Made by a program: the position numbers and the translations under genes. Shown piece after piece: positions 36,676 to 57,760 of a stretch of 59,120 bases of DNA; the first letter of the stretch is position 1, and each line of letters begins with the position of its first letter. Under the pieces are notes generated by a model. That model was not told the DNA's origin. It searched no databases and saw only the letters and a program-made list of their open reading frames with translations. This DNA is from Rhizobiaceae bacterium (lineage in GTDB: Bacteria; Pseudomonadota; Alphaproteobacteria; Rhizobiales; Rhizobiaceae): contig JARGOF010000031.1 of NCBI GenBank assembly GCA_029212415.1, forward strand, positions 1 through 59,120, in the 5' to 3' direction.

Positions 36676-36692
36676 CCGTTATTGCCTGACTT

Positions 36693-37190: not shown

Positions 37191-37210
37191 GATTTCAGCC
37201 GAAATGAGAG

Positions 37211-37237
37211 GCGGTGCCGCCTGACAGGCGACACCGC
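37211..37237 (-). terminator. hairpin between dctP and dctQ
   Basis: GCGGTG and CGCCTG pair with CAGGCG and CACCGC around one mismatch. The stem lies just behind the binding-protein gene, as at ugpB/ugpA, so it probably raises dctP message relative to the permeases. Confidence 0.5.
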
Positions 37238-37244
37238 ACAGGAT

Positions 37245-38252: not shown

Positions 38253-38298
38253 GAATATCCTCCCTGGGATTTATGTGTGGATCAATACTTCAGATGCT

Positions 38299-39192: not shown

Positions 39193-39223
39193 TGATCTCT
39201 CCTTCATAGTTCTTGACCACAAC

Positions 39224-39241
39224 ATAATACGGAAATATTAT
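39224..39241. promoter_or_regulatory. inverted repeat between BKACE and GntR genes
   Basis: ATAATA-N6-TATTAT is a perfect 6-bp inverted repeat in the 97-base divergent promoter region. It is a candidate site for the GntR regulator encoded next to it, by position only. Confidence 0.35.
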
Positions 39242-39289
39242 ATGTAAACACCATTTTTATCGATCAAATGGAATTATTGGAGCGCTCAG

Positions 39290-39979: not shown

Positions 39980-40312
39980 TTGCCCGCATTGGCTGGTCTC
40001 AAGGGGGTAACGTTCCAACGAACATCATGGCCAATTGCGCCAATCGGCACCTGTGGACGGGCAAAGACTTTGCCAATGCCACCCCCTTGCCTATAATGAA
40101 CTTCATTCATTATATTTCTTTATCTCAATCATCACTTGAAATATAAGAGGGAGGCTGAGGTGCCGCCTTGACCCTCCTGTGGAAATAGCTTCAGTCCACG
40201 GACAGTTCCTGAGAGACGTTCTGCGGCTCAGATATTTACGCGCATACAAAACAATGAGTTACACCCACCTGCCTCATTCAACGGCAAGCCTCATCAACAC
40301 CGTGGAGAACGA
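39980..40312. other. intergenic region with TetR operator
   Basis: 333 bases between the GntR and TetR genes. Contains the palindrome at 40093-40113; otherwise AT-rich with nothing recognised. Confidence 0.5.
40093..40113. promoter_or_regulatory. TetR-type operator upstream of the AtuR-like gene
   Basis: ATAATGAA-CTTCA-TTCATTAT has perfect 8-bp arms with a five-base centre. The inner ATGAA-N5-TTCAT recurs at 43145-43159 in the promoter region of the catabolic operons, which suggests one regulator for both. Confidence 0.65.
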
Positions 40313-41014
40313 ATGACCAGTGTAACACCACGCAGACCGGTTTCGCGACTGTCACGAGAGCGGCGCATTGCCGACATCATGGCGGCGGGGCGCGAGGTCT
40401 TTCGGGAAAAAGGCTATGAAGATGCACCGCTGTCAGACATCGCCGAGAAAGCCAATGTCGTAGAAGGCAGCATCTATCGCTACTTCGATAACAAACGCGA
40501 TCTTCTCGTCAAGGTCATCGAGGTTTGGTATGAAGGCATGTTGGCCGACTATCAGGAACAGCTGTCGGGCATTCGCGGCACACGCAACCGACTGCGCTAC
40601 ATGATCTGGCGACACCTCAAAACCATCCACGACGAACCAGCACTGTGCAATCTGATGTTCCAGTTCTTGCGATCCGGCAAGGATTACAGCAAAACCGGGG
40701 TGTTTAACCTCAACAGGAATTATACCCGCCAAACCCTGGATATCATCAGTGAAGGGGTTCGAAAGGGCGAACTACGGGGCGATGTTTCGCTGCGGCTGGT
40801 GCGCGACATGATTTACGGCTGCGTGGAACACACCACATGGGCCTACCTGCGCGGTGAAGCCGATTTCGATGTTGAAAAAACAGCCGACGATGTCGTCGAA
40901 CTGGTGCTTAGTGGGCTTCAGGTGCGCTATACCGGCAGTCCGACAGGGCCGGATATTGCCACCAGACTGGAAAATGCCGTGGAGAAGCTGGAAGCGATGA
41001 CCGAAAAACCATAG
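40313..41014 (+). CDS. TetR-family regulator (AtuR-like by context)
   Basis: 233 residues. The N-terminal helix-turn-helix is PLSDIAEKANVVEGSIYRYFDNKRD; the C-terminal helical ligand domain has no assigned family. It lies convergent with the SDR/acyl-CoA dehydrogenase operon and upstream of the Atu-like cluster; the operator shared with that cluster supports a repressor role analogous to AtuR of Pseudomonas aeruginosa. Confidence 0.82.
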   Translation: MTSVTPRRPVSRLSRERRIADIMAAGREVFREKGYEDAPLSDIAEKANVVEGSIYRYFDNKRDLLVKVIEVWYEGMLADYQEQLSGIRGTRNRLRYMIWRHLKTIHDEPALCNLMFQFLRSGKDYSKTGVFNLNRNYTRQTLDIISEGVRKGELRGDVSLRLVRDMIYGCVEHTTWAYLRGEADFDVEKTADDVVELVLSGLQVRYTGSPTGPDIATRLENAVEKLEAMTEKP

Positions 41015-41026
41015 CAGGAAAAACTG

Positions 41027-41893
41027 TCAGTCCCCGGTTTTGAAATAGTCCGGCTTTCCGGTCGTCCAGGTCTCGCCCCAGAGCTGCCCGCCGCCGTCGA
41101 CGGTCAGCAACTCGCCGGTAATGAACCTGCCGGACGGGCCGCCCAGATACATGCACGCTTCGGCTATGTCCCAGGTGTTACCCGCCTGCATCATGGGGTT
41201 GGATTGAGGATAGGCGGCGCGCGCTTCAGGCGTATAGACCTTCCAACCTTCCGTTTCGATGGCGCCCGGCGCAATACAATTGACGCGGATGCCAAGTGGC
41301 GCCCATTCGACGGCCACACTTCGGGTCAGCCCGATGACGCCGGAGCGCGCAGCGATCGTATGCGCAACGCCATGCAGTCCGTGGTTGGTTACAACGACGA
41401 TGTTGACGATACTGCCCGGCTTGCCTGTGTCGCGCCACTTGCGCGCAGCCGACTGCATCATGAACCAGGTGCCATTGAGATTGGTGTTGACGACCGCGTT
41501 CCACCCTTTGACCGAGAAATCGATCGCGGCCTGCGGGAACTGCCCCCCGGCACTATTGACGAGAATGTCGACAGGGCCTTGCTCATGCCAAAGCGTTTCA
41601 AAAAAGCTCTCTACGGCTTCAGCATCGCGGATATCGACGCGCGCGCCATGACAATCCAGCCCTTTCTCGCGCATGGCGGCCACAAGCACATCAATTTTTT
41701 CCTGACTGCGACCTGATATGACAACCCTGGCGCCAAGCCTTCCAAAAAGCCAGGCTGTGGCGCGGCCGATGCCGCCTGCCCCGCCGGAAATGAGCACGGT
41801 TTTCCCCTGCAACGCACCGTCCGCATAGACGGTCGGGCAGGAAGCAAGATCGGCGTCAGAGAGGCCGAATTTTTCTTTGTCGTCTGCGCTCAT
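41027..41893 (-). CDS. SDR oxidoreductase, 2,4-dienoyl-CoA-reductase-like
   Basis: 288 residues. The NAD(P) site is GGAGGIGRATA; NSAGG and NTNLNGTW follow. The classical YxxxK is not conserved: the aligned segment is HTIAARSGV, with Thr and Arg where Tyr and Lys should be, and a His one position earlier as in peroxisomal DECR2. The SDR thus resembles dienoyl-CoA reductases more than alcohol dehydrogenases. Its start overlaps the acyl-CoA dehydrogenase stop (ATGA). It may correspond to AtuG/AtuB in role. Confidence 0.8.
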   Translation of the reverse strand: MSADDKEKFGLSDADLASCPTVYADGALQGKTVLISGGAGGIGRATAWLFGRLGARVVISGRSQEKIDVLVAAMREKGLDCHGARVDIRDAEAVESFFETLWHEQGPVDILVNSAGGQFPQAAIDFSVKGWNAVVNTNLNGTWFMMQSAARKWRDTGKPGSIVNIVVVTNHGLHGVAHTIAARSGVIGLTRSVAVEWAPLGIRVNCIAPGAIETEGWKVYTPEARAAYPQSNPMMQAGNTWDIAEACMYLGGPSGRFITGELLTVDGGGQLWGETWTTGKPDYFKTGD

Positions 41894-43104
41894 GTGTCCA
41901 TGTCTTTCAACAGTTCACCCGCGATAATCATCTTGCGCACTTCGGTGGTTCCTGCACCAATTTCCAAAAGCTTGATCGAGCGGAAGAGCCGGTTGATCTC
42001 CGATTCCCAGATATAACCATAGCCTCCGTGAACCTGAACGGCCAGATCAAGCACCTTGTGGACGGCTTCCGCCGTGAACATGACTGACGCGGCTGTCAAC
42101 TTGTGGATGTCGCCGCGTCCGCCGCCGCCAACCTCCAAAGGTGCGGCTGCGGCCAGAACCTTGTAGGTCAGTGCGCGCATGGCTTCGACCTCCACATACA
42201 TATCCGCCAACATGGACTGAACCATCTGGAACGAGCCGATCGGTTTGCCAAATTGCTTGCGCATCTTGGCATATTCTACAGACAGCTCGAGCGCCCGCTC
42301 TGCAATACCGAGACAAATCGGCGAAATCATCGCCCGCTCGAGATCAAGGCCGCTCATGACAATCGAGACGCCGCGATTTTCCTCGCCCACCAAGTTTTCC
42401 ACCGGGACCCGGCAATCCTCGAAGACCAGTTCAGCCGTCTGGCTGCCGCGGTATCCCATCTTGATGAGCTTCTGAGCCACCTTGAAACCCGGCATGTCCT
42501 TTTCCACGATAAAGGCGGATACACCACGGGAGCCTTTTTCCTTGTCGGTTTTCGCATAGACAAGGATGACGTCCGCTATCGGGCCGTTTGTAATGTATAT
42601 CTTCGAACCGTTGAGGACGTAATGGTCGCCTTCGCGGCGCGCGGTGGTCCGCATGGAGCCGATGGCATCCGAACCCGCACCCGGCTCGGTCAACGCCAAG
42701 GCACCCACTTTTTTGCCGGAACACATATCAGGAAGATATTTTCTGCGCTGTGCGTCATTGCCGTTTCGGTAAATGTTGTTGAGGCAAAGATTGTCATGGG
42801 CGACCCAGGACAGAGCCATTGCGTGATTCCACCTTGCCATGGCTTGCCCGACAAGACCGGCAGCCACAAGGTCCAGCCCGGCGCCGCCAAATTCTTCCGG
42901 TACAGTGATCCCAAAGAGGCCGTTATCGCCGATCTTTGGAAATGCGTCTTCAGGCCACCATTCATCCTTATCCATACGTTCGCACAGGGGATAAAGCTCA
43001 TTGCGGGAAAAACGATCCGCATTGTCGAGGATCATCTGTTGTTCCGTATCCAGATCGAAGCTGTTGGACCATTCATTCGCTCCATGGCGATCCTGCATTT
43101 TCAT
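41890..43104 (-). CDS. acyl-CoA dehydrogenase, isovaleryl/citronellyl-CoA type
   Basis: 404 residues of the FAD acyl-CoA dehydrogenase fold. The catalytic base is Glu256 in SGLDLERAM, the helix-G position seen in isovaleryl-CoA dehydrogenase rather than the C-terminal Glu of medium-chain enzymes. FAD/substrate motifs are LTEPGAGSDA, YITNGPIADV and the C-terminal QVHGGYGY. The branched-chain type fits a citronellyl-CoA or isovaleryl-CoA substrate. It is the first gene of a two-gene operon; the promoter has the ATGAA-N5-TTCAT site. Confidence 0.87.
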   Translation of the reverse strand: MKMQDRHGANEWSNSFDLDTEQQMILDNADRFSRNELYPLCERMDKDEWWPEDAFPKIGDNGLFGITVPEEFGGAGLDLVAAGLVGQAMARWNHAMALSWVAHDNLCLNNIYRNGNDAQRRKYLPDMCSGKKVGALALTEPGAGSDAIGSMRTTARREGDHYVLNGSKIYITNGPIADVILVYAKTDKEKGSRGVSAFIVEKDMPGFKVAQKLIKMGYRGSQTAELVFEDCRVPVENLVGEENRGVSIVMSGLDLERAMISPICLGIAERALELSVEYAKMRKQFGKPIGSFQMVQSMLADMYVEVEAMRALTYKVLAAAAPLEVGGGGRGDIHKLTAASVMFTAEAVHKVLDLAVQVHGGYGYIWESEINRLFRSIKLLEIGAGTTEVRKMIIAGELLKDMDT

Positions 43105-43144
43105 TCCTCCCGCTTGACTGGCGCTCAGTCAAAGATGCGCCTTA

Positions 43145-43159
43145 ATGAAATTACTTCAT
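43145..43159. promoter_or_regulatory. TetR-type operator in the divergent catabolic promoter
   Basis: ATGAA-ATTAC-TTCAT matches the inner half-sites and spacing of 40093-40113. It is 41 bases before the acyl-CoA dehydrogenase ATG. A one-mismatch version (ATGAA-TTCAA-ATCAT, 43267-43281) precedes the enoyl-CoA hydratase start on the other side. Confidence 0.65.
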
Positions 43160-43317
43160 CATAAACTTATCGGCAATATGTCAACCAATAAAATATAAAT
43201 AGCGGGCACATCAAGCGAAATTTGCCTTTCTTTCAAAATGCGCGGGATTGGATATTGACAATATTGATGAATTCAAATCATTTAGCGAAACGCAATAACA
43301 ATCAAGTAGGTGGAGTC

Positions 43318-44100
43318 GTGACAGATACAGTACTTGTCGAGCGTCGAGGCGCCGTGGTCTGGATAACGATCAACAGGCCCGAACGGCGCAATGCGCTGAA
43401 TGAAAGCGTGGCAAGCGGCATAGCAGCCGCTCTGGACGAAGCGGAAGCAAACGCCGAAGTTCGGGCTGTCGTTCTGACGGGTGCTGGAGACAAGGCCTTT
43501 TGTGCCGGTGGCGACCTTCAACTACAGGCGGATGGAACACCTTTCACAATCAATGCCGCTGATCCCCGGCATTATGTCGCCGCACTCCTGCGCCGTATGG
43601 ACGCCTGCCGTCTGCCGCTCGTTGCGCGCGTGAACGGCCACGCGCTCGCCGGAGGCTTCGGGCTGGTCTGCGCCTGCGACCTGGTGGTTGCCAGCGAAAA
43701 TGCGCTGATTGGCGTCACGGAAGTCAAGGTCGGGTTGTTTCCTGCGATGATACTGCCGTTCCTGTTGCGCACAGTACCCTACCGCCGAATCATGGAAATG
43801 TGCCTGACTGGCGAACCAATCCCCGCTGCAGACACTGTCATCGATGGCGTTGTCAACTATGCGGTTCCGGCCGAGGAACTTGATGACAAGCTGCAATGGC
43901 TGCTGGGGCGCATTACCGACAAGTCACCAACCGGCATCCGGCTCGGCAAACAGGGGCTGGCGAAAATTCGCGAAATGTCCACCGACGCCGCGCTCGAATA
44001 TGCGCAATTCATGTTGGCCAATATGGCGCGCACCAAGGACGCCGTCGAGGGTTTCCAGGCCTTCAACGAGAAGCGCGGCCCCAAGTGGACCGGGGAATGA
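43318..44100 (+). CDS. enoyl-CoA hydratase/isomerase (LiuC/AtuE-like)
   Basis: 260 residues from a GTG at 43318 behind AGGTGGAG; an ATG at 43267 is possible but overlaps a putative operator. Crotonase motifs are AFCAGGDLQ and ALAGGFGLVCACDLVVA, then VTEVKVGLFP. Of the two crotonase Glu, the first (GGGCEL in mitochondrial hydratase) is Gly here while the second (TEVKVG) remains, a pattern shared by methylglutaconyl/isohexenylglutaconyl-CoA hydratases. Its stop overlaps the AtuA start region (ATGA). Confidence 0.85.
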   Translation: MTDTVLVERRGAVVWITINRPERRNALNESVASGIAAALDEAEANAEVRAVVLTGAGDKAFCAGGDLQLQADGTPFTINAADPRHYVAALLRRMDACRLPLVARVNGHALAGGFGLVCACDLVVASENALIGVTEVKVGLFPAMILPFLLRTVPYRRIMEMCLTGEPIPAADTVIDGVVNYAVPAEELDDKLQWLLGRITDKSPTGIRLGKQGLAKIREMSTDAALEYAQFMLANMARTKDAVEGFQAFNEKRGPKWTGE

Positions 44101-44102
44101 CA

Positions 44103-45926
44103 ATGGCCGGCAAGGCAGTGCGCATTGGTTGCGGCGCGGGCTTTTGGGGCGATAGCCCTGAAGGGGCTGCGCAAATCGTGCGCTCTGGAAACGTCGATTA
44201 TCTGGTGATGGACTATCTGGCAGAGATCACCATGTCGATCCTCGCACGGATGAAGGGCAAACGTGCGGACCTTGGCTATGCGATTGATTTCGTCACTGCG
44301 GTCATGAAACCGCTTGCCCGGGAAATCGCCCAGAAGAATATCCGCGTTGTCACCAATGCCGGCGGCGTCAATCCGCAAGCTTGCCGCGACGCGCTGCTCG
44401 CGGTCTTCAAAGAGGTGGGTGTCGACCTCAAAGTTGCCGTCGTGCTGGGCGATGACCTGTCGGACCATGCGCACCGCTACCGCGAACAGGGCGTGAGGGA
44501 AATGTTTTCCGGCGCGCCGATGCCGGATCGGCTTGCCAGCGTCAGCGCCTATCTGGGCGCCTTTCCGATCGCCGCCGCACTCAATGCAGGCGCGGATATC
44601 GTCATCACGGGCCGGGCAGTGGATTCTGCCGTTGTCCTGGGGCCACTCATCCATGAATTCGGTTGGACGCCATCCGACTATGACACGCTGTCCGCCGGCA
44701 GTCTTGCCGGCCACCTTCTGGAATGTGGCCCGCAGGTCACCGGCGGTATCTTCACCGATTGGCATGACGTCAGCGGCTGGGATGATATGGGCTACCCCAT
44801 CGCCGAGTGTCATACCGACGGCAGCTTTATCGTCACCAAACCTGACAACACCGGCGGCCTGGTCACTCCGGCCTCAGTGGCCGAGCAGGTCGTTTATGAA
44901 GTCGGAGACCCCGCAAGCTACATCCTCCCGGATGTGATCGCAGACTGGAGCGCGATCCGGCTCGAACAGGTCGGGCCAGATCGCGTGAAGGTCAGCGGCG
45001 CCAAGGGACGACCGCCGACGGACAGCTACAAGGTCAGCGCCACCTATGCCGACGGTTACCGCGCCTATGTCACCATGGCGATCATCGGTCGCGATGCAGT
45101 CGCCAAGGCTCGAGCGACCGGCGAAGCCATTCTCAAACGCGCCAACCGCTTGATCACCAAAGCCGACTTTGCGGAATTTTCTGAAACCTCTGTCGAAATT
45201 CTCGGCAGCGAAGCCAATTACGGAGCGCAGGCGCGCCGGGCAGATACGCGGGAGGTTATCCTGAAGATCGCCGTCAGGCATCCGGTCAAGGACGCGCTGA
45301 AAATCTTTGCTCGGGAGATTTTTCAGTCGGCGACAGCAATGGCGCAGGGACTGACAGGATTTGCCGGTGGCAGACCAGAGCCGCAACCGGTCATCCGCCT
45401 GTTTTCCTTTACCTCCGCCAAACACGATATTCCAGTCACTGTCGCATTCGAAGGCCGAACCATTAAAGTGCCCCTTCATGTTCCCGACAAGGTCGATGGA
45501 GACGAGGCGCGAGCAATCACCCCGGGCCCGGTCGCGGTTCCGGCGGGTCCCCTTGCCACCGTTCCGCTCATTGCGCTTGCGCATGGCCGTAGCGGCGACA
45601 AGGGCGATATCGGCAACATCGGAATTCTGGCGCGAGAACCTGAATATCTGCCCTGGATCCGGCGCAGCGCCACCCCTGACGCCGTGCGCGAATACTTTGC
45701 CCATTTTGTCAAAGGCGATGTCGATCGATTTGAATGGCCTGGACTCAACGGCCTTAATTTTCTGCTCCATCAGGGGCTTGGAGGTGGTGGCATCGCCTCA
45801 CTTCGCCATGACCCGCAAGGCAAGGCACTGGCGGGCATCATGATGGACTTTCCGGTGGAGGTGCCTGTCGAATGGGTGACGCCGGGTGGAGCGTTGGAAG
45901 ACTGGCAGAAAGAGGCCATCGCATGA
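44103..45926 (+). CDS. acyclic terpene utilisation AtuA-like protein (DUF1446)
   Basis: 607 residues from the ATG at 44103 (GGGGA six bases upstream; ATG 44097 also possible). The DUF1446 N-terminal region has RIGCGAGFWGDSPEGA, VTNAGGVNPQAC and ITGRAVDSAVVLGPLIHEFG; a C-terminal domain starts near 490 (LIALAHGRSGDKGDIGNIG). AtuA is required for citronellol/geraniol catabolism in P. aeruginosa; its reaction is not settled. Immediate neighbours are carboxylase genes, as in the atu cluster. Confidence 0.87.
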   Translation: MAGKAVRIGCGAGFWGDSPEGAAQIVRSGNVDYLVMDYLAEITMSILARMKGKRADLGYAIDFVTAVMKPLAREIAQKNIRVVTNAGGVNPQACRDALLAVFKEVGVDLKVAVVLGDDLSDHAHRYREQGVREMFSGAPMPDRLASVSAYLGAFPIAAALNAGADIVITGRAVDSAVVLGPLIHEFGWTPSDYDTLSAGSLAGHLLECGPQVTGGIFTDWHDVSGWDDMGYPIAECHTDGSFIVTKPDNTGGLVTPASVAEQVVYEVGDPASYILPDVIADWSAIRLEQVGPDRVKVSGAKGRPPTDSYKVSATYADGYRAYVTMAIIGRDAVAKARATGEAILKRANRLITKADFAEFSETSVEILGSEANYGAQARRADTREVILKIAVRHPVKDALKIFAREIFQSATAMAQGLTGFAGGRPEPQPVIRLFSFTSAKHDIPVTVAFEGRTIKVPLHVPDKVDGDEARAITPGPVAVPAGPLATVPLIALAHGRSGDKGDIGNIGILAREPEYLPWIRRSATPDAVREYFAHFVKGDVDRFEWPGLNGLNFLLHQGLGGGGIASLRHDPQGKALAGIMMDFPVEVPVEWVTPGGALEDWQKEAIA

Positions 45927-47407
45927 GCAACCCACTATTCAACAAGGTTCTGGTGGCCAACCGCGGCGAAATCGCCTGTCGCATCATGCGGACGCTTTCG
46001 CAGATGGGGATTCCCACGGTCGCCATATATCATGCGGCGGAAACCAAGGCACGGCATGTGCAAATGGCGGACAAGGCCGTGGAAATTTACGGCGAAACAC
46101 CTGTTGCCGCCCATTTGGACATGGGCCAGATTATCGAGATCGCCCGCAATCTCGAGGTTGACGCCATCCATCCGGGCTATGGCTTTCTCTCGGAGAACGC
46201 CAACTTTGCAGCCGCTGTAGCGGACGCCGGCATGACTTTTATCGGACCGGACGCCGAGACGATCGCCTTGATGGGCGACAAGATTTCGGCCCGTAATTTT
46301 GCGGAAAAGCACAATGTTGCGGTTGCACCCTCTGTTATGCCGACAGATGATCTTGATGACTTCATCGAGAAGGCCGCCGGCATCGGCTATCCGCTTCTGA
46401 TAAAGGCGGCTGCCGGGGGCGGCGGCAAAGGCATGAGCATCGTTCGCGAGGCGGCAGCGCTTGTCGAGGCTGCCCGCGTCGCTTCCAGCGAGGCCCAACG
46501 CTATTTTGGTGACGGAAGAGTCTATGCAGAAACATATGTGGACCATCCCCGCCATATAGAAGTGCAGGTTCTGGGTGACGGCAAGGGCGGCGCCATTCAT
46601 CTTTTCGAGCGCGAATGTTCCGTACAGCGCCGCTTCCAGAAGATTATCGAAGAAGCCCCTGCGCCGAACCTTTCTGCCGAATTGCGCGATGAGATCTGCA
46701 CCTCGGCCACACGTCTTGCCGCAGCTGCCAACTACAAGAACGCCGGCACTGTTGAATATATCCTGGGGGCCGATGGGCGCTTCTTCTTCCTTGAGATGAA
46801 CACCCGGCTACAGGTGGAACACCCGGTCACTGAAATGATCACCGGTATCGATCTGGTGCATGCGCAAATCGAGATTGCAGCCGGCAAAGGGCTTCCCCTG
46901 CCCCAATCCGAAGTGCGCACCTCCGGTCACGCCGTGGAATGCAGGATCTGCGCAGAAAATCCCGAACAGGACTTCATGCCGGAGACCGGCGTCGTGCGGC
47001 ATCTCGGCGTACCGGAAGCAGAATGGCTGCGTTTCGAAAATGCGTTGACGCACGGGCAAAAGATCACCGCCGATTTCGACCCCATGCTGGCCAAACTCGT
47101 CGCCCATGGCCCCAACCGCGATGCAGCCATCGAGCGCTCGATTGCAGCCCTCGGCGAACTCGCACTTCTGGGCGTGAAAACGAATATCGATTATCTCGCG
47201 CGGCTCATCAACCACGATGCTTTCAGGGCAGCCGAGCTGCATACCGGTTTCATTGCTCAGCATCGGGACGACCTCGCACCCAAGGCATTGAATGAAACCG
47301 AGCGTGCACAGATTCTGGCCGCCGCCTTTCTCGGCTTTCGACAGACACGTGATCTCATCGTCGGCACACCGGAGCCGCATGCTGCAATCGGCGGATGGAG
47401 GAACTGA
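45923..47407 (+). CDS. biotin carboxylase subunit of acyl-CoA carboxylase
   Basis: 494 residues from the ATG at 45923, overlapping the AtuA stop (ATGA). Full biotin carboxylase motifs are KVLVANRGEIACRI, KAAAGGGGKGMSIV (ATP-grasp), FERECSVQRRFQKI and FLEMNTRLQVEHPVTE. It stops after the carboxylase domain; in MCC, PCC and AtuF alpha subunits the same chain continues for about 170 residues into the BT and biotin domains, which here are encoded by the next gene. It carboxylates biotin with ATP and bicarbonate. Confidence 0.88.
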   Translation: MSNPLFNKVLVANRGEIACRIMRTLSQMGIPTVAIYHAAETKARHVQMADKAVEIYGETPVAAHLDMGQIIEIARNLEVDAIHPGYGFLSENANFAAAVADAGMTFIGPDAETIALMGDKISARNFAEKHNVAVAPSVMPTDDLDDFIEKAAGIGYPLLIKAAAGGGGKGMSIVREAAALVEAARVASSEAQRYFGDGRVYAETYVDHPRHIEVQVLGDGKGGAIHLFERECSVQRRFQKIIEEAPAPNLSAELRDEICTSATRLAAAANYKNAGTVEYILGADGRFFFLEMNTRLQVEHPVTEMITGIDLVHAQIEIAAGKGLPLPQSEVRTSGHAVECRICAENPEQDFMPETGVVRHLGVPEAEWLRFENALTHGQKITADFDPMLAKLVAHGPNRDAAIERSIAALGELALLGVKTNIDYLARLINHDAFRAAELHTGFIAQHRDDLAPKALNETERAQILAAAFLGFRQTRDLIVGTPEPHAAIGGWRN

Positions 47408-47409
47408 CG

Positions 47410-47913
47410 ATGGGTTTCCAATTGATCCTTGATGGTGAGGAACACGACGTCGCCATTGTTCGGCGCAGGCCACATCTGGTCTTGCGCATTGATGGCATCG
47501 AGCACGAATTCTCCGAGATCGGCGGACCAGGCGACGGTCTGCATGCGTTGAAATCCGGCAAACATCCGATTGATTTCATCCGCGCCTCGGACAATGAGCG
47601 CCAGATCATTCGGCTCGGTGGACGGACGTTCGAAGTGGACCATATCGATCCATTCTCAGAAGGCATGGAGAGCGGTGGCAACAAGGATGCCGTGCGTTCG
47701 CCAATGCCCGGAACCGTCGTTTCCATCCAGTGCAAGGAAGGCGACACGGTGGTGCGTGGCACACCGCTGGTGACGATTGAAAGCATGAAGCTGCAGACCG
47801 TGTTGTCTGCCATGCGCGAAGGAACTGTGGCTGAAATATTGCGGGTCGAGGGCGAAACTTTCGAAAAAGACGCGATCATCGTCATGCTGGAACCAGAGAC
47901 AGAGAAGGCCTGA
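47410..47913 (+). CDS. separate biotin carrier subunit of the carboxylase
   Basis: 167 residues. The C-terminal biotinyl domain has SPMPGTVVSIQCKEGDTV and the biotin site ESMKLQ with Lys127. The N-terminal ~90 residues (LILDGEEHDVAIVRR) resemble part of the BT linker domain that binds the beta subunit. With the preceding gene it makes up one alpha subunit split in two. It starts two bases after the carboxylase stop. Confidence 0.85.
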   Translation: MGFQLILDGEEHDVAIVRRRPHLVLRIDGIEHEFSEIGGPGDGLHALKSGKHPIDFIRASDNERQIIRLGGRTFEVDHIDPFSEGMESGGNKDAVRSPMPGTVVSIQCKEGDTVVRGTPLVTIESMKLQTVLSAMREGTVAEILRVEGETFEKDAIIVMLEPETEKA

Positions 47914-47918
47914 CAGAC

Positions 47919-49526
47919 ATGCGCAAGATCCAATCCATGATCTCTACGGCTTCGCCCGATTTCCGCACCTACGATGCCCACAATCGGCGCATTCTGACGG
48001 AATTTCGCGAAAAGCAGGAGGCAGCACGCCATAGCCGCAAGCAACGCGACCTCGACCGGCTGGAAAAACAAGGCAAGATGCGTCCACGCGAGCGGATCGA
48101 AATGTTGCTCGATCCGGGTACGCCATTCCTCGAGCTGTCATCGCTGGCCGCCAATATGGCTTACGACGGCGGCTCACCCTCGGCCAGTTCCATCGTCGGC
48201 ATAGGCGTGGTCTCCGGCCGCGAGGTCATGATCCGCGCCGACGATCCGACCATCAAAGGCGGTGCATGGTATCCTTTGACCATCAAGAAGATCGTTCGCG
48301 CACTTGATATCGCCATCGAAAACCGCCTGCCTGTGATCCACCTTTGCGATAGCGCCGGCGGTTTCCTGCAACTGCAATCGGATTTGTTTCCTGACAAATT
48401 CATGGGCGGACGGATTTTCCGCAATCAATCCATTCTGTCCAAGATGGGCGTAAAACAATTGGCGCTCGTCTTCGGCCATTGCACCGCAGGCGGCGCCTAT
48501 ATTCCGGGCCTTTCGGATTACAATGTCATCGTGCGCGGCACCGGCGCGGTTTTCCTGGGCGGTCCGCCGCTCGTCAAGGCTGCGACCGGCGAAGAGGTGA
48601 GCGTCGAGGAACTGGGTGGTGCGGACATGCACACTTCAGTCTCCGGCTCGTGCGATTACCCCGCCTCAAGCGAAGCAGAAGCCATTCACATCGGGCGCGA
48701 AATCGTTGCTCAGTGGGAGCGCCCGAAGAAATGGGATTGCCAACGCGAAACGCCGGAAGATCCCGCCTACGACCCCGACGAGCTTTACGGCATCATTCCC
48801 GATGACATCAAAAAGCATTTCGACATGCGCGAGGTCATTGCGCGTATGGTCGACGGCAGCCGCTTCCACGAGTATCAGCCGAATTACGGCACGACATTGA
48901 TTTGCGGTTTCGCTCATATCTGGGGCTACAAGGTCGGCATTCTTGCCAATAATGGCGTGCTCTTCAATGATTCCTCGCTCAAGGGCGCCCATTTCATGGA
49001 GCTCTGCAACCAGAACAATACGCCGCTGGTCTTCCTGCAAAACATAACGGGATACATGATCGGGCGCGAATATGAGCGACGCGGCATTACCAAGGACGGC
49101 GCCAAGATGATCATGGCGCAGAGCTGTTCCCACGTGCCCAAATTCACCGTCATGTGTAACGGATCATTCGGCGCGGGCAATTACGGCATGTGCGGCCGCG
49201 CCTTTGACGGGCGCTTCATGTTCTGCTGGCCAAATCACCAGATCGGCGTCATGGGCGGTGACCAGGCCGCCAACACGCTTGCCGAGGTCAAGATCAACCA
49301 GATGAAACGCAATGGTGGCGTGGTTGATGAGGCAGAAGTCCAGAAACTCTCGGAAGAGACCCGCTCGGCCTATCAGGAGCAGCTTTCAGCCTACTATTCG
49401 ACATCGCAACTCTGGGATGACGGGATCATCGACCCGGTCGACACCCGCAATGCGCTCGGCGTCTCAATTTCCGCTTCCCTCAATGCGCCGCTCGGTGATC
49501 CGGGATACGGCGTTTTCAGGTTTTAG
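47919..49526 (+). CDS. carboxyltransferase (beta) subunit, geranyl/methylcrotonyl-CoA carboxylase type
   Basis: 535 residues, the crotonase-like carboxyltransferase fold in two halves. Motifs are GGSPSASSIVGIGVVSGREV, HCTAGGAYIPGLSDYNVIV, FLGGPPLVKAATGEEVSVEE and NITGYMIGREYERRGITKDG with GAGNYGMCGRAFD. It transfers the carboxyl from biotin to the gamma carbon of an alpha,beta-unsaturated acyl-CoA. AtuA next door favours a terpenoid acyl-CoA, but the acyl pocket was not modelled, so methylcrotonyl-CoA remains possible. Confidence 0.87.
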   Translation: MRKIQSMISTASPDFRTYDAHNRRILTEFREKQEAARHSRKQRDLDRLEKQGKMRPRERIEMLLDPGTPFLELSSLAANMAYDGGSPSASSIVGIGVVSGREVMIRADDPTIKGGAWYPLTIKKIVRALDIAIENRLPVIHLCDSAGGFLQLQSDLFPDKFMGGRIFRNQSILSKMGVKQLALVFGHCTAGGAYIPGLSDYNVIVRGTGAVFLGGPPLVKAATGEEVSVEELGGADMHTSVSGSCDYPASSEAEAIHIGREIVAQWERPKKWDCQRETPEDPAYDPDELYGIIPDDIKKHFDMREVIARMVDGSRFHEYQPNYGTTLICGFAHIWGYKVGILANNGVLFNDSSLKGAHFMELCNQNNTPLVFLQNITGYMIGREYERRGITKDGAKMIMAQSCSHVPKFTVMCNGSFGAGNYGMCGRAFDGRFMFCWPNHQIGVMGGDQAANTLAEVKINQMKRNGGVVDEAEVQKLSEETRSAYQEQLSAYYSTSQLWDDGIIDPVDTRNALGVSISASLNAPLGDPGYGVFRF

Positions 49527-49529
49527 CCG

Positions 49530-50132
49530 ATGGCCGAAGCAATCCGTTTCTATTTTGACTTTGCCTCACCCTATGCTTATTTCGCCAGCCGCGAGATTGA
49601 GAAAGTCGCTGCGGACTGTGATCGATCCGTCGAATGGAGGCCCGTTTTGCTTTGGGCCGTCCTCAAGGCCCACGAGATTGCGCCGCCGATGGATGCGCCG
49701 GTCAAACGCGACTATTTCTTCAAGGATATGGCGCGTTCCGCTCGTTTCTATGGCTTGCCCTACGAACAACCGGCGAAATTTCCTTTGTCGTCACATCTGG
49801 CAGCGCGGCTTTTCCACTTCATCGACAGGGATGACTCGCAGGCATCGATCACATTCGCGCGGCGGGTTTTTTCCACCTTTTTCGTCGAGGGCGGTGATAT
49901 CTCTGATGAAACAGTCATGACGGCGCTTGCAAGCGACGTCGGCTTGTCTTCAGAACTGGCCAAAGAAGGCATGAAGGGACCGCAGGGCCGCGCGCTGCTG
50001 GAATCGGCGGTGAGCGAAGCAATTGCAGATGGCGTGATCGGTTCTCCGTTTTTCATCGCCGACGGCGAGAAATATTTCGGTGCAGATCGTTTGTCACACC
50101 TTGCCCGGTTTCTGAAGGCGACACAAAAATGA
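49530..50132 (+). CDS. DsbA-family / 2-hydroxychromene-2-carboxylate isomerase-like protein
   Basis: 200 residues of the kappa-GST/HCCA isomerase group: FYFDFASPYAYFAS with the glutathione-contacting Ser13, GLPYEQPAKFP and GSPFFIADGEKYFG. HCCA isomerase acts in naphthalene breakdown using glutathione; its presence inside a branched acyl-CoA carboxylase operon, three bases after the beta subunit, is unusual. It may be a glutathione-dependent cis/trans isomerase for an unsaturated intermediate; that is inference. Confidence 0.82.
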   Translation: MAEAIRFYFDFASPYAYFASREIEKVAADCDRSVEWRPVLLWAVLKAHEIAPPMDAPVKRDYFFKDMARSARFYGLPYEQPAKFPLSSHLAARLFHFIDRDDSQASITFARRVFSTFFVEGGDISDETVMTALASDVGLSSELAKEGMKGPQGRALLESAVSEAIADGVIGSPFFIADGEKYFGADRLSHLARFLKATQK

Positions 50133-50241
50133 CATCGAGGCCCAAAAGATTTTCACGGGAAGCACCATTTTCATCGCGTCGATTGGATATGACGCGAGGG
50201 TTCACACTGCCCAGGCATGCTTGGCAAAAAGGATTGCATTG

Positions 50242-50892
50242 ATGAGCGAAGACACCTTGAAACCAACGCATTACATCAATTCGGATCACCCCGATATCCA
50301 AGGTTTCACGCAGGACCACGCAGGCACGGGGGATGACGTCTCCAAGGCTGTTAATCTCTATTACGCGGTCCGCGATGCGGTCCCGTACAATATCTATGCA
50401 TTCGCGCTTGATGAACCAAACTTCGTTGCCTCCAACGTTCTAAAGTCGGAAAATGCGTTTTGCGTTCCGAAGGCGGTCGCGCTCGCCGCTGTCGCCAGAG
50501 CCGCGGGAATTCCGTCCAAGGTTGGTTTTGCAGATGTGCGAAACCACATCACCACCCCGCGCGTCACCGAATTGATGGGCAATGACATTTTCCGTTGGCA
50601 CGCCTATACAGCACTCTATCTGGATGGAAACTGGGTAAAGGCGACGCCGGCATTCGATCTGGAACTTTGCCAGCGCCATGAGATGATGCCGCTGGATTTC
50701 AACGGACGTGATGACTCCATATTTCATCCTCATGATACCAAGGGGCGCCGTCATATGGAGTATCTCGCGTTTCACGGCGAATTCACCGACATGCCCTTTG
50801 AGACATTTGCGGGCGAAATGCGCGCCAGCTATTCGCGGATGCTTGAGGCATTTGCAAAGGACCGTGCCGAAAGGCGTATGTCAAAACACTGA
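50242..50892 (+). CDS. transglutaminase-like protein
   Basis: 216 residues from the ATG at 50242. The papain-like transglutaminase core is present with Cys74 (ENAFCVPKAVALAAVARAAG), His120 (RWHAYTALYLDGNWVK) and Asp139 (ATPAFD), in the right order and spacing. Transglutaminase-like proteins are mostly proteases or amidases. There is no signal peptide, so it is cytosolic. It lies 109 bases after the previous gene and 25 before the thiolase; its role in the pathway is unknown. Confidence 0.8.
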   Translation: MSEDTLKPTHYINSDHPDIQGFTQDHAGTGDDVSKAVNLYYAVRDAVPYNIYAFALDEPNFVASNVLKSENAFCVPKAVALAAVARAAGIPSKVGFADVRNHITTPRVTELMGNDIFRWHAYTALYLDGNWVKATPAFDLELCQRHEMMPLDFNGRDDSIFHPHDTKGRRHMEYLAFHGEFTDMPFETFAGEMRASYSRMLEAFAKDRAERRMSKH

Positions 50893-50917
50893 CAACAACC
50901 CGACAAAGAAGGTCATC

Positions 50918-52099
50918 ATGACACAGGCAGTTCACATTCTTGCAGGTAACCGCACTGCAATCGGCACTTTTGGCGGGTCACTTTCAGCGCAAGAACCCAG
51001 CGCGCTCGGTGCGTCTGTCGCTGTGGAAGCCATGAAACGCGCCTCTGTCGATCCGGCAGAGATCGGCCACGTGGTCTACGGCAATGTCATCCCGACCGGG
51101 CCGCATGACGCCTATTTGGGGCGGGCCGCTGCACTGGGTGCAGGCATTCCTGAAGAAGCGCCCGCAATGACGCTCAACCGCCTGTGCGGCAGTGGGGCTC
51201 AAGCCATTGTTTCTGTCGCCCAGAACATCATGCTTGGCGATTGCCAGGTGGGGCTTGCCGGAGGCACGGAAGTGATGAGCCGCGCTCCGCATTATCTCCA
51301 GGCCGGGCGGTTCGGGCAGAAGATGGGCGATGCGAAAATGATCGACGGGCTTACCGGCATTTTGACCGACCCTTTCGGCAGCGGCATCATGGGCGTCACT
51401 GCCGAAAATGTTTCCGAGAAGTACCATATCTGTCGGGAGGATCAGGACGCCTTTGCGCTTGAAAGCCAGCAGCGTGCCGCCCATGCGATCAGGAATGGGC
51501 ATTTCAAGACACAGATTTTGCCGCTTGAAGTAAAGGCCGGACGCACGTCGCATATTTTCGAAACGGATGAACACCCCAAGTCGGATACGACAATGGAAGG
51601 GCTTGCGGCGCTTAGGCCCGCCTTCAAAAAGGATGGCACAGTCACGGCTGGAAATTCCTCGGGCATCAATGACGGTGCGGCTGCGGTGGTCCTTGCCTCC
51701 GAAGACTACGTCAACCGCAACGGCGCAAAAACGCTCGGTCGTCTTGTAGGCTACGCCCATTCGGGTGTCGAACCCAGGATCATGGGTATCGGACCGGTGC
51801 CTGCTGTTCGCATGCTGCTTGAGCGGACAGGCCTGTCGCTTTCCGACATTGATGTCATCGAATCCAATGAAGCCTTTGCAGCACAGGCGCTTGCCGTCAG
51901 TCGCGAACTCAAGTTCGATCCGCAGAAGGTCAATCCTGACGGCGGCGCCGTCGCACTTGGCCATCCGGTCGGAGCAACAGGGGTCATTCTGAGCCTAAAA
52001 GCGCTTTACTATCTCGAGCGCACCGGCGGACGCTACGCTATTGTCACCATGTGTATCGGCGGCGGACAAGGTATCGCTCTGGCGTTTGAACGCGGATAA
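50918..52099 (+). CDS. thiolase (acetyl-CoA C-acyltransferase)
   Basis: 393 residues from the ATG at 50918 (AAAGAAGG upstream). The nucleophile is Cys90 in LNRLCGSGAQA, followed by SNEAFAAQA, GGAVALGHPVGATG with its His, and the second Cys in MCIGGGQG: a complete degradative thiolase site. It cleaves a 3-ketoacyl-CoA with CoA to give acetyl-CoA or propionyl-CoA. It is the last gene of the AtuA-carboxylase operon. Confidence 0.9.
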   Translation: MTQAVHILAGNRTAIGTFGGSLSAQEPSALGASVAVEAMKRASVDPAEIGHVVYGNVIPTGPHDAYLGRAAALGAGIPEEAPAMTLNRLCGSGAQAIVSVAQNIMLGDCQVGLAGGTEVMSRAPHYLQAGRFGQKMGDAKMIDGLTGILTDPFGSGIMGVTAENVSEKYHICREDQDAFALESQQRAAHAIRNGHFKTQILPLEVKAGRTSHIFETDEHPKSDTTMEGLAALRPAFKKDGTVTAGNSSGINDGAAAVVLASEDYVNRNGAKTLGRLVGYAHSGVEPRIMGIGPVPAVRMLLERTGLSLSDIDVIESNEAFAAQALAVSRELKFDPQKVNPDGGAVALGHPVGATGVILSLKALYYLERTGGRYAIVTMCIGGGQGIALAFERG

Positions 52100-52123: not shown

Positions 52124-52822
52124 TCATCTTTTCTCGAGAATTTTCCATACACCGGTGCAGCTTGCGACGGGCCGACCGTCAACCGTGAAATCGCCACGCA
52201 TGAACATCAGCGATCGGGTCGATTTAGAGCATGTCTTGTTTTCATTGACCCACTCTGTTCGTGATCCAGTGAGTCGATCCGACAGGAAGGCGGTAAAGAG
52301 CGATGCTGTCGCATCGGTCGAGACGTCTGACGCAGCGGGCGGCCACTGGTCGCGAACCCTTCGGGCCAGTTGTTTTTTCGCCACTACCTACGTCGTTCCG
52401 CTTGCCCGTACCTTAAGGTACGCGCTTCGCGAACCGACTTGATCCTGACAAAAAAACAACTGGCAGAGTGAATCAATGAAAGCAAGACATGCTCTCTTGA
52501 CTTCAGGTTCAACCTCGACGACATCGCCACACAAAATGGCGTCGAGAAACCGGCAATCGAACTCGATGGTGAACATGGGCAGATTATCGCGTGACCAGCG
52601 GCCTGCGAAGCCAAGCGCTTCATCTGCAAACGACATGACAACGCCACCATGAGCCCGTTCATGTGAGTTGTCGTGACGGCTGTCTGTCTTCATGCAAAAA
52701 CGGACGCGCTTGCCAGCGGGCCGATAATAAAATGGACCTATGTGACGCGAGAAGCTCGTACCCTCCAGGACTTTCCAGCCGTCGCCGGGATGCCATTCTC
52801 CCGCGCTTTCATTTTCGATCAT
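52124..52822 (-). pseudogene. PaaI-type thioesterase interrupted by an insertion
   Basis: The ATG at 52822 overlaps the preceding enoyl-CoA hydratase stop (ATGA). The first ~108 residues are a hotdog thioesterase with the HERAHGGVVMSFADEALG catalytic segment, ending at VVEVEPEVK. A 270-bp palindromic element follows, and the missing C-terminus (STRSLMFMRGDFTVDGR and CTGVWKILEKR) resumes at about 52225 in the same frame, ending at 52124. Translation through the element stops at 52388 after ~35 unrelated residues, so the enzyme is probably inactive. Confidence 0.8.
52226..52495. mobile_element. 270-bp MITE-like palindromic element
   Basis: Terminal inverted repeats of 32 bp with three mismatches lie at 52226-52257 and 52464-52495; both begin AGAGCATGTCTTG read inward. 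Inside are a second 14-bp inverted repeat (GCCAGTTGTTTTTT at 52365-52378 against 52451-52464) and a central palindrome GTACCTTAAGGTAC (52408-52421). There is no coding capacity for a transposase. It splits a thioesterase gene precisely, which marks it as inserted; a clear target duplication is not evident beyond a possible 2-bp AA. Confidence 0.75.
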
Positions 52823-53592
52823 TTAGCCTTCTTTCGCGCAAAAAATGCTGCGATCTGTGCCTTCATTGCCGGCGCGCGGCCCAATTCACCCTGCAGGTCG
52901 CGCTCCATATCGAGCTGCTCATCCAGGTTAAGATGATGACTGGCCTCGATCAATCTTTTTGTCGATGCGACCGCGTCAGGATCGCGGCTCACAAGAATAT
53001 CGCAGATTGACCGGCACTCTGCTTCCAACTGAGCATCATCGACAACTTTCCAGATCAGCCCCCATTCGGACGCACGATCAGCAGAAACTTTCTCGCCCAG
53101 CAACATCATGGCAGATGCCTTGCCGCGCCCCATGGCATACGTCAGGAAGGCGGTATTGCCCGCATCCGGAACAAGCGCGATGCCGACAAAAGGCTCATAA
53201 AAATAGGCTGAACGGGCTGCGACCACGATATCGCAAGCCAACGCGATGCCGACAGAGGCGCCCGCACAAGGCCCATTGACCGCTGCGACAAATGGCAGGC
53301 GCGAGGCACGCATTGCCCGGATAACCGGGTTGAAGTGATTTTCGAGAACATCATCAAGCGCCGGTACATCGTCCGGCGAAATCGTCGAAAGATCATAACC
53401 GGCTCCAAACGCCCTGCCTTCTCCGGTCAGCATCACAGCGCGTACGGACGGATCAGCATCGCAGCGTTTGATGGCCGCCAGCAATTCATCCGCTGTCTGA
53501 TCGCGATAGGCATTGAGTTGCCTGGTCCGGCAAACTGCAATGCACGCCAACCCGTCTGAAATGGTCAGTTTGATATCCGCGTAATCAGCCAT
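52819..53592 (-). CDS. enoyl-CoA hydratase/isomerase family protein
   Basis: 257 residues from the ATG at 53592. Crotonase core: GRAFGAGYDLSTIS (oxyanion), AAVNGPCAGASVGIALACDI and YEPFVGIALVPDAGNTAFL, closest in pattern to PaaG-like isomerases (Asp in the P-x-x-G-x-x-Y-x-L region; neither hydratase Glu is clear). It overlaps the monooxygenase stop by eight bases and the thioesterase start by four. Confidence 0.82.
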   Translation of the reverse strand: MADYADIKLTISDGLACIAVCRTRQLNAYRDQTADELLAAIKRCDADPSVRAVMLTGEGRAFGAGYDLSTISPDDVPALDDVLENHFNPVIRAMRASRLPFVAAVNGPCAGASVGIALACDIVVAARSAYFYEPFVGIALVPDAGNTAFLTYAMGRGKASAMMLLGEKVSADRASEWGLIWKVVDDAQLEAECRSICDILVSRDPDAVASTKRLIEASHHLNLDEQLDMERDLQGELGRAPAMKAQIAAFFARKKAK

Positions 53593-54538
53593 TGCGTCCC
53601 TCAAATCCGGCGGCAGCATATTTGCACGCCTCATCATATTCGTGTTGAAGTCGTGTGCATAAATCGGATGCTGACGGGATATCGGAAATTGCGCCTATTC
53701 CCTGACCGGAGGCCCATAAATCGCGCCAGGGCTTGATATCATCGGTGGTCGACAAATTAAGCTCCGCAGCCGGGGTCAGATCGTCGGGATCGAGACCCGC
53801 TTCGACAAAACTTTCGCGCAGGAAATTGCCGGGAAGGCCGCTCACGCGGGGCGTCAGCACAATATCTTCAGCTTGCCCGGCGACCATCAATTCCTTGTGG
53901 CGCATGGGAGCAGAGCTTTCTTCGGTGGCTAAAAAGCGGCTGCCCATATAGGCCAGGTCTGCACCCATCAATTGTGCCGCGAGGACCTGGTGACCGGTCG
54001 CAACCGCTCCGCCCAGCAGAAGCGTTCCATCAAACAGGCGACGCAGATCCTGCATGAATGCAAATGGATTGAGCGTGCCGGCATGCCCACCAGCGCCATA
54101 GGTCACGGCGATCAATCCATCAGCACCGGCTTCGATCGCTTTTTCGGCAAACTTCATGTTGACGACGTCGTGAAAAACAAGGCCACCATAGTCATGAACA
54201 GCCCTGATCAGATCACGGTTGAGGCCAAGTGATGTGATGACCAATGGCACCTTGTGATCGATGGTTACAGCGAGATCGGCCTCAAGCCGCGCATTGCTGC
54301 GGTGAACGACAATGTTGACGCCGAAGGGCACATCGCAGTCTGCTTCAAACAATGCGCCTTCAATCTGGTCAAGCCAGGCCACATAGCCGTCGGTTCGCCG
54401 CTGGTTCAATACGGGAAAGGTGCCGACAACTCCGGATTTGCAACAGGCGATTACCAGTTCAGGTGTCGACGTCAAAAACATCGGGGAAGCAACAACAGGC
54501 AGAGAAAGTTTGCCTTCCCAACTCTTCGGTAAAGTCAT
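53585..54538 (-). CDS. nitronate monooxygenase-family FMN protein
   Basis: 317 residues, a TIM barrel of the NMO/2-nitropropane dioxygenase family. The N-terminal LPVVASPMFLTSTPELVIA, the catalytic His in YGAGGHAGTLNPF, and the FMN-phosphate segment LLGGAVATGHQVLAAQLMGA are present. These enzymes oxidise nitronates, but many in fatty-acid loci act on other small molecules or as enoyl reductases. It is the first gene of a three-gene operon ending in the broken thioesterase. Confidence 0.84.
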   Translation of the reverse strand: MTLPKSWEGKLSLPVVASPMFLTSTPELVIACCKSGVVGTFPVLNQRRTDGYVAWLDQIEGALFEADCDVPFGVNIVVHRSNARLEADLAVTIDHKVPLVITSLGLNRDLIRAVHDYGGLVFHDVVNMKFAEKAIEAGADGLIAVTYGAGGHAGTLNPFAFMQDLRRLFDGTLLLGGAVATGHQVLAAQLMGADLAYMGSRFLATEESSAPMRHKELMVAGQAEDIVLTPRVSGLPGNFLRESFVEAGLDPDDLTPAAELNLSTTDDIKPWRDLWASGQGIGAISDIPSASDLCTRLQHEYDEACKYAAAGFEGRNG

Positions 54539-55796: not shown

Positions 55797-55834
55797 TTTG
55801 TTCTCCTCTCGTTGCGTTCTCGTTTCGACCGCAC

Positions 55835-57753: not shown

Positions 57754-57760
57754 TCGTGCC

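Follow-up and report, generated by a model that had tools for sequence, protein, structure and literature searches.

The question raised by this locus is whether bacteria possess a third way of dealing with beta-methyl branches. Such branches block beta-oxidation, and to our knowledge 3-methylcrotonyl-CoA carboxylase (MCC) and geranyl-CoA carboxylase (GCC) are the only enzymes known to handle them by gamma-carboxylation. The locus lies on contig JARGOF010000031.1 of a Rhizobiaceae bacterium (assembly GCA_029212415.1), which was analysed along its entire 59,120 bases (hereafter the window; contig C45 of a 5.84 Mb genome), and it encodes an MCC/GCC-type carboxylase with a divided alpha subunit next to a gene for AtuA. 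Our analysis shows that MCC/GCC-type carboxylases whose alpha subunit is cut within the BT domain, encoded here in an atu-like operon, are a real, conserved variant and make up a third class. We consider it reasonably probable that the operon serves the atu-type degradation of a beta-methyl-branched, isoprenoid-like acyl-CoA, and uses this third class of gamma-carboxylating acyl-CoA carboxylase to do so. The genes at its centre are the following.

43318..44100, plus strand: enoyl-CoA hydratase (ECH) family protein, putative AtuE/LiuC-like role (Pfam ECH_1).
44103..45926, plus strand: AtuA, predicted acetate-releasing lyase (PF07287, AtuA, plus the C-terminal domain PF23544, AtuA_ferredoxin).
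45923..47407, plus strand: biotin carboxylase (BC) chain ending in GGWRN (Pfam domains biotin carboxylase N, ATP and C; by alignment, also the helix region and hook of BT).
47410..47913, plus strand: BT barrel and biotin carboxyl carrier protein (BCCP) chain of 167 residues, hereafter the carrier, with biotin motif ESMKL (Pfam Biotin_lipoyl).
47919..49526, plus strand: carboxyltransferase (CT, the beta subunit), MCC-like, with Gly163 at the gate (Pfam Carboxyl_trans).

Relatives of the CT were gathered in two ways. Scanning 84,980 species genomes for sequence patterns yielded 35 loci, alpha- and gammaproteobacterial by most record titles, all with a CT of at least 74% identity (one of the six search peptides adjoins the gate residue, so this set is not gate-blind). 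A class search of 144 genomes gave five CTs of the same type, including the window's own, at 67% identity or more, all other matches listed being at most 57% identical. The window, the 35 loci from the scan and four from the class search make up the 40 loci of what we call the split clade, after the divided alpha subunit described below; the window's CT is 100% identical to that of locus L040 and 94% identical to that of a Pararhizobium locus (L014). Cultured bacteria that carry the operon type include Paracoccus alkenifer and Gemmobacter megaterium. By sequence it is closer to MCC and GCC than to propionyl-CoA carboxylase (PCC), scoring 601.7 bits against human MCC, 599.2 against Legionella pneumophila MCC and 449.7 against GCC among solved structures, and 254.5 against the best chain named only as PCC and not shown to be MCC (structure 9tps is named PCC in this search list and titled MCC in the Foldseek list). 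The nearest relatives outside the clade are MCCs, at about 50–57% identity. At the N-terminus, where an extra helix of the beta subunit would set the MCC/GCC lineage apart from PCC, Pfam Carboxyl_trans begins at residue 50; the alignment with the L. pneumophila MCC beta subunit starts at residue 1, and that with PCC chains at about residue 14.

According to passages of PMC4673880, MCC is marked by a three-residue insertion and a Phe together; the same passages report that exchanging this Phe for Gly (F191G) gave MCC activity on geranyl-CoA and nearly abolished that on methylcrotonyl-CoA, and that the Gly-to-Phe exchange in GCC abolished geranyl-CoA activity. In our CT alignment (98 of 111 frames, the others being re-fetched or duplicate entries; the 111 did not include L046 and L047) the position of human F191 is occupied by Ala in 31 and by Gly in seven of the 38 split-clade rows, with the loop deletion in none. 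Among the 59 remaining rows of the MCC/GCC family two states occur: 37 have Phe and no deletion, and the others have a three-residue deletion with Gly (18), Ala (3) or Ser (1), so the mixed state is confined to the split clade. With a small gate residue and a loop of MCC length, the clade therefore fits neither the MCC nor the GCC definition, and judging by these residues its substrate pocket looks more open than that of MCC. Outside the gate the CT shows no general shift towards GCC: split and MCC-type rows are told apart by 26 positions, and the commonest GCC-gate residue is shared by the split rows at six of these and by the MCC-type rows at eight.

A quick CT tree was built without bootstraps and with the gate columns included; its rows were labelled as split by at least 60% identity and as MCC-gate or GCC-gate by the gate itself. 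All 38 split rows form one branch on a long stem (SH-aLRT 100), whose sister group consists of 32 Phe-gate rows (support 90). A separate branch holds the 22 deletion-loop rows (support 98), and five further Phe-gate rows branch elsewhere.

Two other carboxylases are encoded in the genome: contig C51 carries a Phe-gated MCC-type CT with a fused alpha subunit, beside an acyl-CoA dehydrogenase 45% identical to the one in the window, and contig C52 carries AtuA and a GCC-gate CT, again with a fused alpha subunit. As the genome already holds an MCC-type and a geranyl-type enzyme, the carboxylase of the window is a third system. An MCC-type CT, 50–53% identical, is present in all five split-bearing genomes of the 144, and its gate residue is Phe in the four that were fetched (the window's own genome, G046, G067 and G142). 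In G142, only the split and MCC-type CTs lie above the search threshold, and AtuA is present; in G034, of the same genus, no geranyl-class CT was found among the matches listed, the third match being weaker than the GCC-class matches listed. Elsewhere, at L097:6738-10023, tandem GCC-gate CT genes sit beside one AtuA gene and one fused alpha gene.

Could the window encode a second GCC, working in the known citronellol/geraniol pathway on no new substrate? The atu-like gene set and the GCC-like Gly/Ala gate speak for it, as do a dehydrogenase type shared with a geranyl-type locus (the carboxylase of L117 adjoins a 68% identical copy of the window's dehydrogenase) and the lack of a geranyl-class CT among the matches listed for the one genus of G034 and G142. 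We nonetheless regard this as somewhat unlikely, given that the clade is sister to MCC-type rows and outside the GCC-gate branch, that its loop lacks the three-residue deletion of GCC and that a geranyl-type carboxylase with AtuA is already encoded on C52. Still less probable, in our judgement, is a second MCC for leucine or isovalerate, changed in its alpha subunit but not in its substrate. In its favour are the bit scores nearest to MCC, the retained three-residue insertion, the IVD-like (isovaleryl-CoA dehydrogenase-like) dehydrogenase and the DsbA-like gene, also found in three of 12 MCC-type loci fetched with context. The gate Phe, however, is replaced in all 38 clade rows by the kind of residue that nearly inactivated MCC on methylcrotonyl-CoA in the F191G exchange (PMC4673880, in the passages named above), each of the five split-bearing sampled genomes has a separate MCC-type CT, and AtuA occurs in none of the 12 MCC-type loci with context vs. 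26 of the 40 clade loci in their fetched stretches (in L030 at only 37% identity). The initial annotation had suspected an uncharacterised Atu-like variant rather than plain leucine catabolism, a suspicion that is supported by the Gly gate, by the separate carboxylases on C51 and C52 and by the conservation of the split pair; neither an MCC-type pocket with a HMG-CoA (3-hydroxy-3-methylglutaryl-CoA) lyase nearby nor a known split enzyme of leucine degradation appeared.

The alpha subunit had been described from the outset as two genes (45923–47407 and 47410–47913), with the suggestion that conservation of the pair beside AtuA be looked for in other genomes, and both the split and its conservation were borne out. 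BC and BT/BCCP occupy separate reading frames in 37 of 37 readable clade loci; L046, L047 and L079 could not be read for the split, the first two holding a partial CT and L079 lacking BC in the stretch, and the carrier start assigned in L032 is not a start codon. The relative frame of BC and carrier is 1, 2 and 0 in 24, seven and six loci respectively, and their spacing ranges from a one-base overlap to 42 bases. Outside the clade, 38 MCC-type and geranyl-type loci were compared: an alpha frame is present in 31 and fused in all 31, each BC frame ending with a biotin motif, and seven have no BC in the fetched stretch. This motif reads EAMK in all 31 fused chains and ESMK in all 37 split ones, and all 37 split BC chains end in Trp-x-Asn. 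The split of the alpha chain is thus conserved beyond chance. The near-abutment of the two frames in the window (BC ends at 47407, the carrier begins at 47410) might have pointed to a sequencing error, or to a single protein made by programmed frameshifting, a reading with practically no chance of being right and refuted by the 37 of 37 split loci with gaps of up to 42 bases and, above all, three frame relations, since frames that vary among loci rule out both kinds of frameshift.

Three loci deserve separate mention. L079 (genome G067) has carrier and CT without a BC gene in an 18 kb stretch, beside FAD-binding and glyoxalase-family proteins; L035 and L047 bear record titles of a Klebsiella pneumoniae metagenome-assembled genome (MAG), which, judging by the nearest clade relatives, looks like a mislabelled environmental bin.

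Where in the chain does the cut fall? In passages of PMC4673880 the BT domain is described as a helix inside an eight-stranded barrel, with a hook Trp buried where two domains of the beta subunit meet. The hook column is Trp in all 37 split BC chains, where no further Trp follows and two residues separate it from the stop; among 29 aligned fused chains it is Trp in 25, Phe in three and a gap in one. The window's BC chain aligns with MCC alpha beyond the BC domain, up to query residue 470, and the model of the carrier chain has eight strands (residues 2–79) before the biotin domain (mean pLDDT 85.5, pTM 0.46; the low pTM indicates that the relative placement of the two parts is loose). Foldseek aligned this model over its full length with PCC and MCC alpha chains (best E-value 6e-12, TM-score 0.45 by query), at a root-mean-square deviation (rmsd) of about 14, which we put down to the loose domains. 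Since the BC chain carries the hook region and the carrier model the eight strands, the cut is placed by alignment and model inside the BT domain, between hook and barrel, two residues past the hook Trp. The description of the second gene as a BT/biotin domain consequently holds for the biotin domain and the eight-stranded part of BT; by alignment, the BT helix region and the hook belong to the BC chain.

We turn to AtuA, the predicted lyase. PF07287 was found in 38 of the 144 class genomes, including all five that bear the split. A wider search for AtuA covered ten clade genomes, nine without a nearby copy and that of L030 (L046 and L047 were left out), and found it in seven. An AtuA profile matched PDB entry 9erq (AtuA family/citramalate lyase subunit A) at E 4.4e-9. 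In a fold search, the AtuA model (mean pLDDT 83.1, pTM 0.86) had a sole match below 1e-3, 9evf_A, a citramalate lyase with ADP and pyruvate (E 2.8e-22, TM-score 0.73 by target). As its modelled fold matches citramalate lyase, AtuA is favoured as the lyase, short of proof, and is probably the enzyme that releases acetate. The idea itself is already in the literature: passages of PMC4847356 tentatively give the step (EC 4.1.3.26) to AtuA, and a passage of PMC9973270 describes this as speculation. No paper on the 9erq/9evf lyase was found among titles and abstract openings of the open-licence literature.

The AtuA frames of the 38 genomes fall mainly into two size groups, roughly 435–545 and 585–700 residues, with two longer frames besides; the smaller group may lack the fused C-terminal domain and the larger have it. 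A MaoC-type hydratase adjoins an HpcH/HpaI lyase near MCC-family carboxylases at L032:2147-3540, L042:2172-3580 and L083:9273-10624, possibly another route of hydration and cleavage. The idea that this pair replaces AtuA in L032 and L042 was weakened, as both genomes have AtuA elsewhere and L083, a fused, Phe-gate locus outside the clade, has the same neighbours.

HMG-CoA lyase, whose absence had been taken to argue against plain leucine catabolism, is indeed absent from the window, searched over the whole contig, and the stretches fetched for the 40 clade loci contain none either. The absence is weak evidence against leucine catabolism and was rejected as proof, because eight of the 12 MCC-type loci with context have no such gene nearby (four do), and the C51 locus of the same genome also lacks one. 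The best HMG-CoA lyase match of the genome lies on C25, at about 89826–90680 (L006, L013), not at the MCC-type locus, with a TGA two residues before the end of the match; the gene beside it is presumably a HMG-CoA reductase.

The remaining genes of the locus are given below, with the number of clade loci that hold a relative in the fetched stretch.

40313..41014, plus strand: TetR-family regulator, putative AtuR-like role (Pfam TetR_N, TetR_C_4; 16 of 40).
41027..41893, minus strand: SDR oxidoreductase, in what may be the place of AtuB/AtuG (Pfam adh_short_C2; 25 of 40).
41890..43104, minus strand: IVD-like acyl-CoA dehydrogenase, putative AtuD-like role (Pfam; 26 of 40).
49530..50132, plus strand: DsbA-fold protein (Pfam DSBA; 14 of 40, and three of 12 MCC-type loci).
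About 50245..50892, plus strand: transglutaminase-like protein (Pfam Transglut_core; 11 of 40).
About 50918..52099, plus strand: beta-ketothiolase, BktB-like (Pfam thiolase; NCBIfam PRK09051 subfamily, over cut-off; seven of 40).
52388..53637, minus strand: 4HBT thioesterase (Pfam 4HBT) and a further hydratase, ECH2, both perhaps accessory (for ECH2, a similar gene in 17 of 40).
53585..54538, minus strand: nitronate-monooxygenase-family protein (Pfam NMO; four of 40).
54615..59119, minus strand: branched-chain-type ABC transporter (binding protein and two permeases) and truncated AMP-forming acyl-CoA ligase (family search; binding-protein relative in four of 40).

The layout is divergent: the minus-strand SDR and dehydrogenase genes (41027–43104) face a plus-strand run in the order ECH, AtuA, BC, BT/BCCP, CT, DsbA-like, transglutaminase-like and thiolase (43318 to about 52099), in which AtuA and BC overlap by four bases and two bases separate BC from the carrier. 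A convergent run follows, of thioesterase, second hydratase, NMO-family protein, transporter and the ligase, whose gene is truncated where the contig ends. The names of the second hydratase and of one permease come from a reading of their sequences, without a family scan. AtuA, the carboxylase beta subunit, the hydratase and the IVD-like dehydrogenase had been reported to lie together, and Pfam agrees with all four, with the dehydrogenase and SDR genes just outside 43318–52099 on the divergent side. For the dehydrogenase, the best solved relatives are isovaleryl-CoA dehydrogenases. Among the up to 25 NCBIfam families shown per protein, none passed its cut-off for ECH, AtuA, BC, carrier, CT, the DsbA-like and transglutaminase-like proteins, the dehydrogenase or the SDR.

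By family assignment, the gene set of an atu cluster appears to be complete in the window: AtuA, carboxylase alpha and beta subunits, hydratase, acyl-CoA dehydrogenase, SDR, ligase and TetR regulator, the ligase in the convergent run. A Rhodospirillales contig (L031, also L128) carries in one region the SDR, acyl-CoA dehydrogenase, ECH, AtuA, TetR, ligase, two permeases, binding protein, BC, carrier, CT, DsbA-like protein, hydratase and thiolase, with ligase, permeases and binding protein placed between AtuA and BC, which ties transporter and ligase to the pathway in that contig. In G034 and G142 the SDR gene lies next to AtuA, away from the split locus. The DsbA-like protein might act as a cis-trans isomerase of the enoyl-CoA, since the cis isomer is the one used by GCC; its presence in MCC-type loci too disfavours a function peculiar to this operon. 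At 35356–39979 the window holds a separate module, consisting of a TRAP transporter (DctM, DctP), a beta-keto acid cleavage enzyme and a GntR/FCD regulator, with no sign of membership in the operon.

Candidate regulatory sites were found in the divergent promoter and upstream of the TetR gene.

43142..43161, minus strand: candidate TetR operator 1, TGATGA-N7-TCATTWA, dehydrogenase side (exact match).
43265..43284, plus strand: candidate TetR operator 2, just past a TTGACA box, hydratase side (exact match).
40093..40113, no strand assigned: palindrome TAATGAA-n-TTCATTA ahead of the TetR gene, a weak candidate operator for autoregulation (two mismatches to the operator pattern, one site on both strands).

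The motif between the dehydrogenase and hydratase genes is conserved in comparison with nine relatives. Only two exact copies exist in the 5.84 Mb genome, both in the divergent promoter, and with one mismatch allowed there are nine matches vs. two for a reversed control pattern. The exact motif lies upstream of the hydratase gene in 13 clade loci including the window (20 clade loci hold both flanking genes; an earlier count gave 12 of 129 fetched loci). With two mismatches allowed, the window has five matches, about two being expected by chance; as many occur in eight of 100 shuffles, which makes the palindrome upstream of the TetR gene weak evidence. The arrangement is as expected for a TetR repressor of divergent units, the sites being putative.

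The computation establishes that the fission is conserved, that the clade is single, that its gate is Gly or Ala, which genes the operon holds and that the AtuA fold has its match; from these features we infer the complex, the size class of the substrate and each reaction, in an order that follows the Atu pathway as given in passages of PMC4847356 and PMC4097962. A branched acid would be taken up by the ABC transporter and activated to its CoA ester, the IVD-like dehydrogenase would desaturate the acyl-CoA, and BC, BT/BCCP and CT would carboxylate the beta-methyl group. ECH would then hydrate the carboxylated product and AtuA cleave off acetate, by which the blocking methyl branch would become a 3-oxoacyl-CoA for the thiolase. 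The alpha chain may have been split once in evolution, inside the BT domain, with the eight-stranded barrel of the carrier wrapping the BT helix of the BC chain so that the two chains rebuild one alpha subunit non-covalently; such a rebuilt subunit is expected because BC keeps the helix region and hook and the carrier supplies the barrel. Our best guess for the substrate is a beta-methyl-branched acid larger than methylcrotonate. Degradation of diffusible signal factor (DSF), considered as a substrate hint from passages of PMC9973270, showed nothing specific to the operon.

Several points weigh against an atu-type operon with a third carboxylase and AtuA as its lyase. We know of no biochemistry on the split clade. 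The two residues before the gate are mostly HM or YM in the clade and could refill the pocket, judging by the alignment, and the transporter genes have no operator copy within two mismatches in the window. AtuA was not found in three of the ten clade genomes searched (L034, L036 and L044, all MAGs), and in the genomes of L032, L042 and L079 it lies elsewhere, for L042 inside a geranyl-type cluster. In a single-sequence search AtuA matches 9erq at E 0.16 only, its structural match to 9evf_A has 15% identity, rmsd 5.5 and TM-score 0.56 by query, and the match to the small subunit 9evf_B, which we take to correspond to the AtuA C-terminal domain of the model, is weak (E 0.015, TM-score 0.65 by target). 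Searched by sequence against the PDB, the C-terminal domain gave no citramalate lyase match, only an unrelated chain at E 1.6. The AtuA profile search also matches an evidently unrelated RecA construct at E 1.4e-8; this match, at AtuA residues of about 21–82, was set aside, as it sums six weak repeats of a fused construct of which no stretch passes alone. Finally, passages of PMC4097962 give the acetate-releasing step in Pseudomonas to LiuE.

A bolder reading, which we offer tentatively and which may well be wrong, is that a third gamma-carboxylase lineage arose from the MCC side by two linked changes, loss of the gate Phe and fission of the alpha chain inside BT, with AtuA as a dedicated acetate-releasing lyase of citramalate-lyase fold, and provides self-contained removal of the methyl branch from a soluble branched acid outside the reach of both the Liu and the Atu pathway. 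If true, a conserved third class that combines its gate features differently would widen the range of branched acids that bacteria can mineralise and correct a likely misannotation of these proteins as leucine enzymes. The conserved cut inside BT offers a natural test of how this domain joins alpha and beta subunits, and because AtuA matches a solved citramalate lyase, the dispute over EC 4.1.3.26 (LiuE or AtuA) can be put to a direct test.

Other biotin-dependent carboxylases are also divided, namely bacterial acetyl-CoA carboxylase (ACC), two-subunit pyruvate carboxylase and archaeal ACC/PCC, which have BC and BCCP, or BC and CT-BCCP, on separate chains; none of the split enzymes in the passages of PMC3199775 and the abstract openings of PMC5059739 and PMC11077971 is of MCC/GCC type and cut inside the BT domain. 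Among titles and abstract openings of the open-licence literature we found no description of a split MCC/GCC alpha subunit. The citramalate lyase reaction, like that proposed for AtuA, frees acetate from a tertiary hydroxy acid. Citramalate lyase CmlA/CmlB (PDB 9erq, 9evf) shares the AtuA fold, whereas AtuA differs in its sequence (about 15% identity), in an apparently fused small domain and in a presumed CoA ester substrate. The MCC subunits LiuB/LiuD are the nearest CT relatives and have the insertion loop that the window's enzyme keeps, but the latter has lost the Phe gate, has a split alpha chain and AtuA, and its clade lacks HMG-CoA lyase in the fetched stretches. The locus has a gene set similar to that of the Pseudomonas atu cluster with its GCC AtuC/AtuF and shares with it the small gate residue, AtuA and a TetR-type regulator gene, and it differs in the split alpha subunit, a CT on the MCC side of the tree, a gate loop of MCC length and a divergent dehydrogenase-SDR pair.

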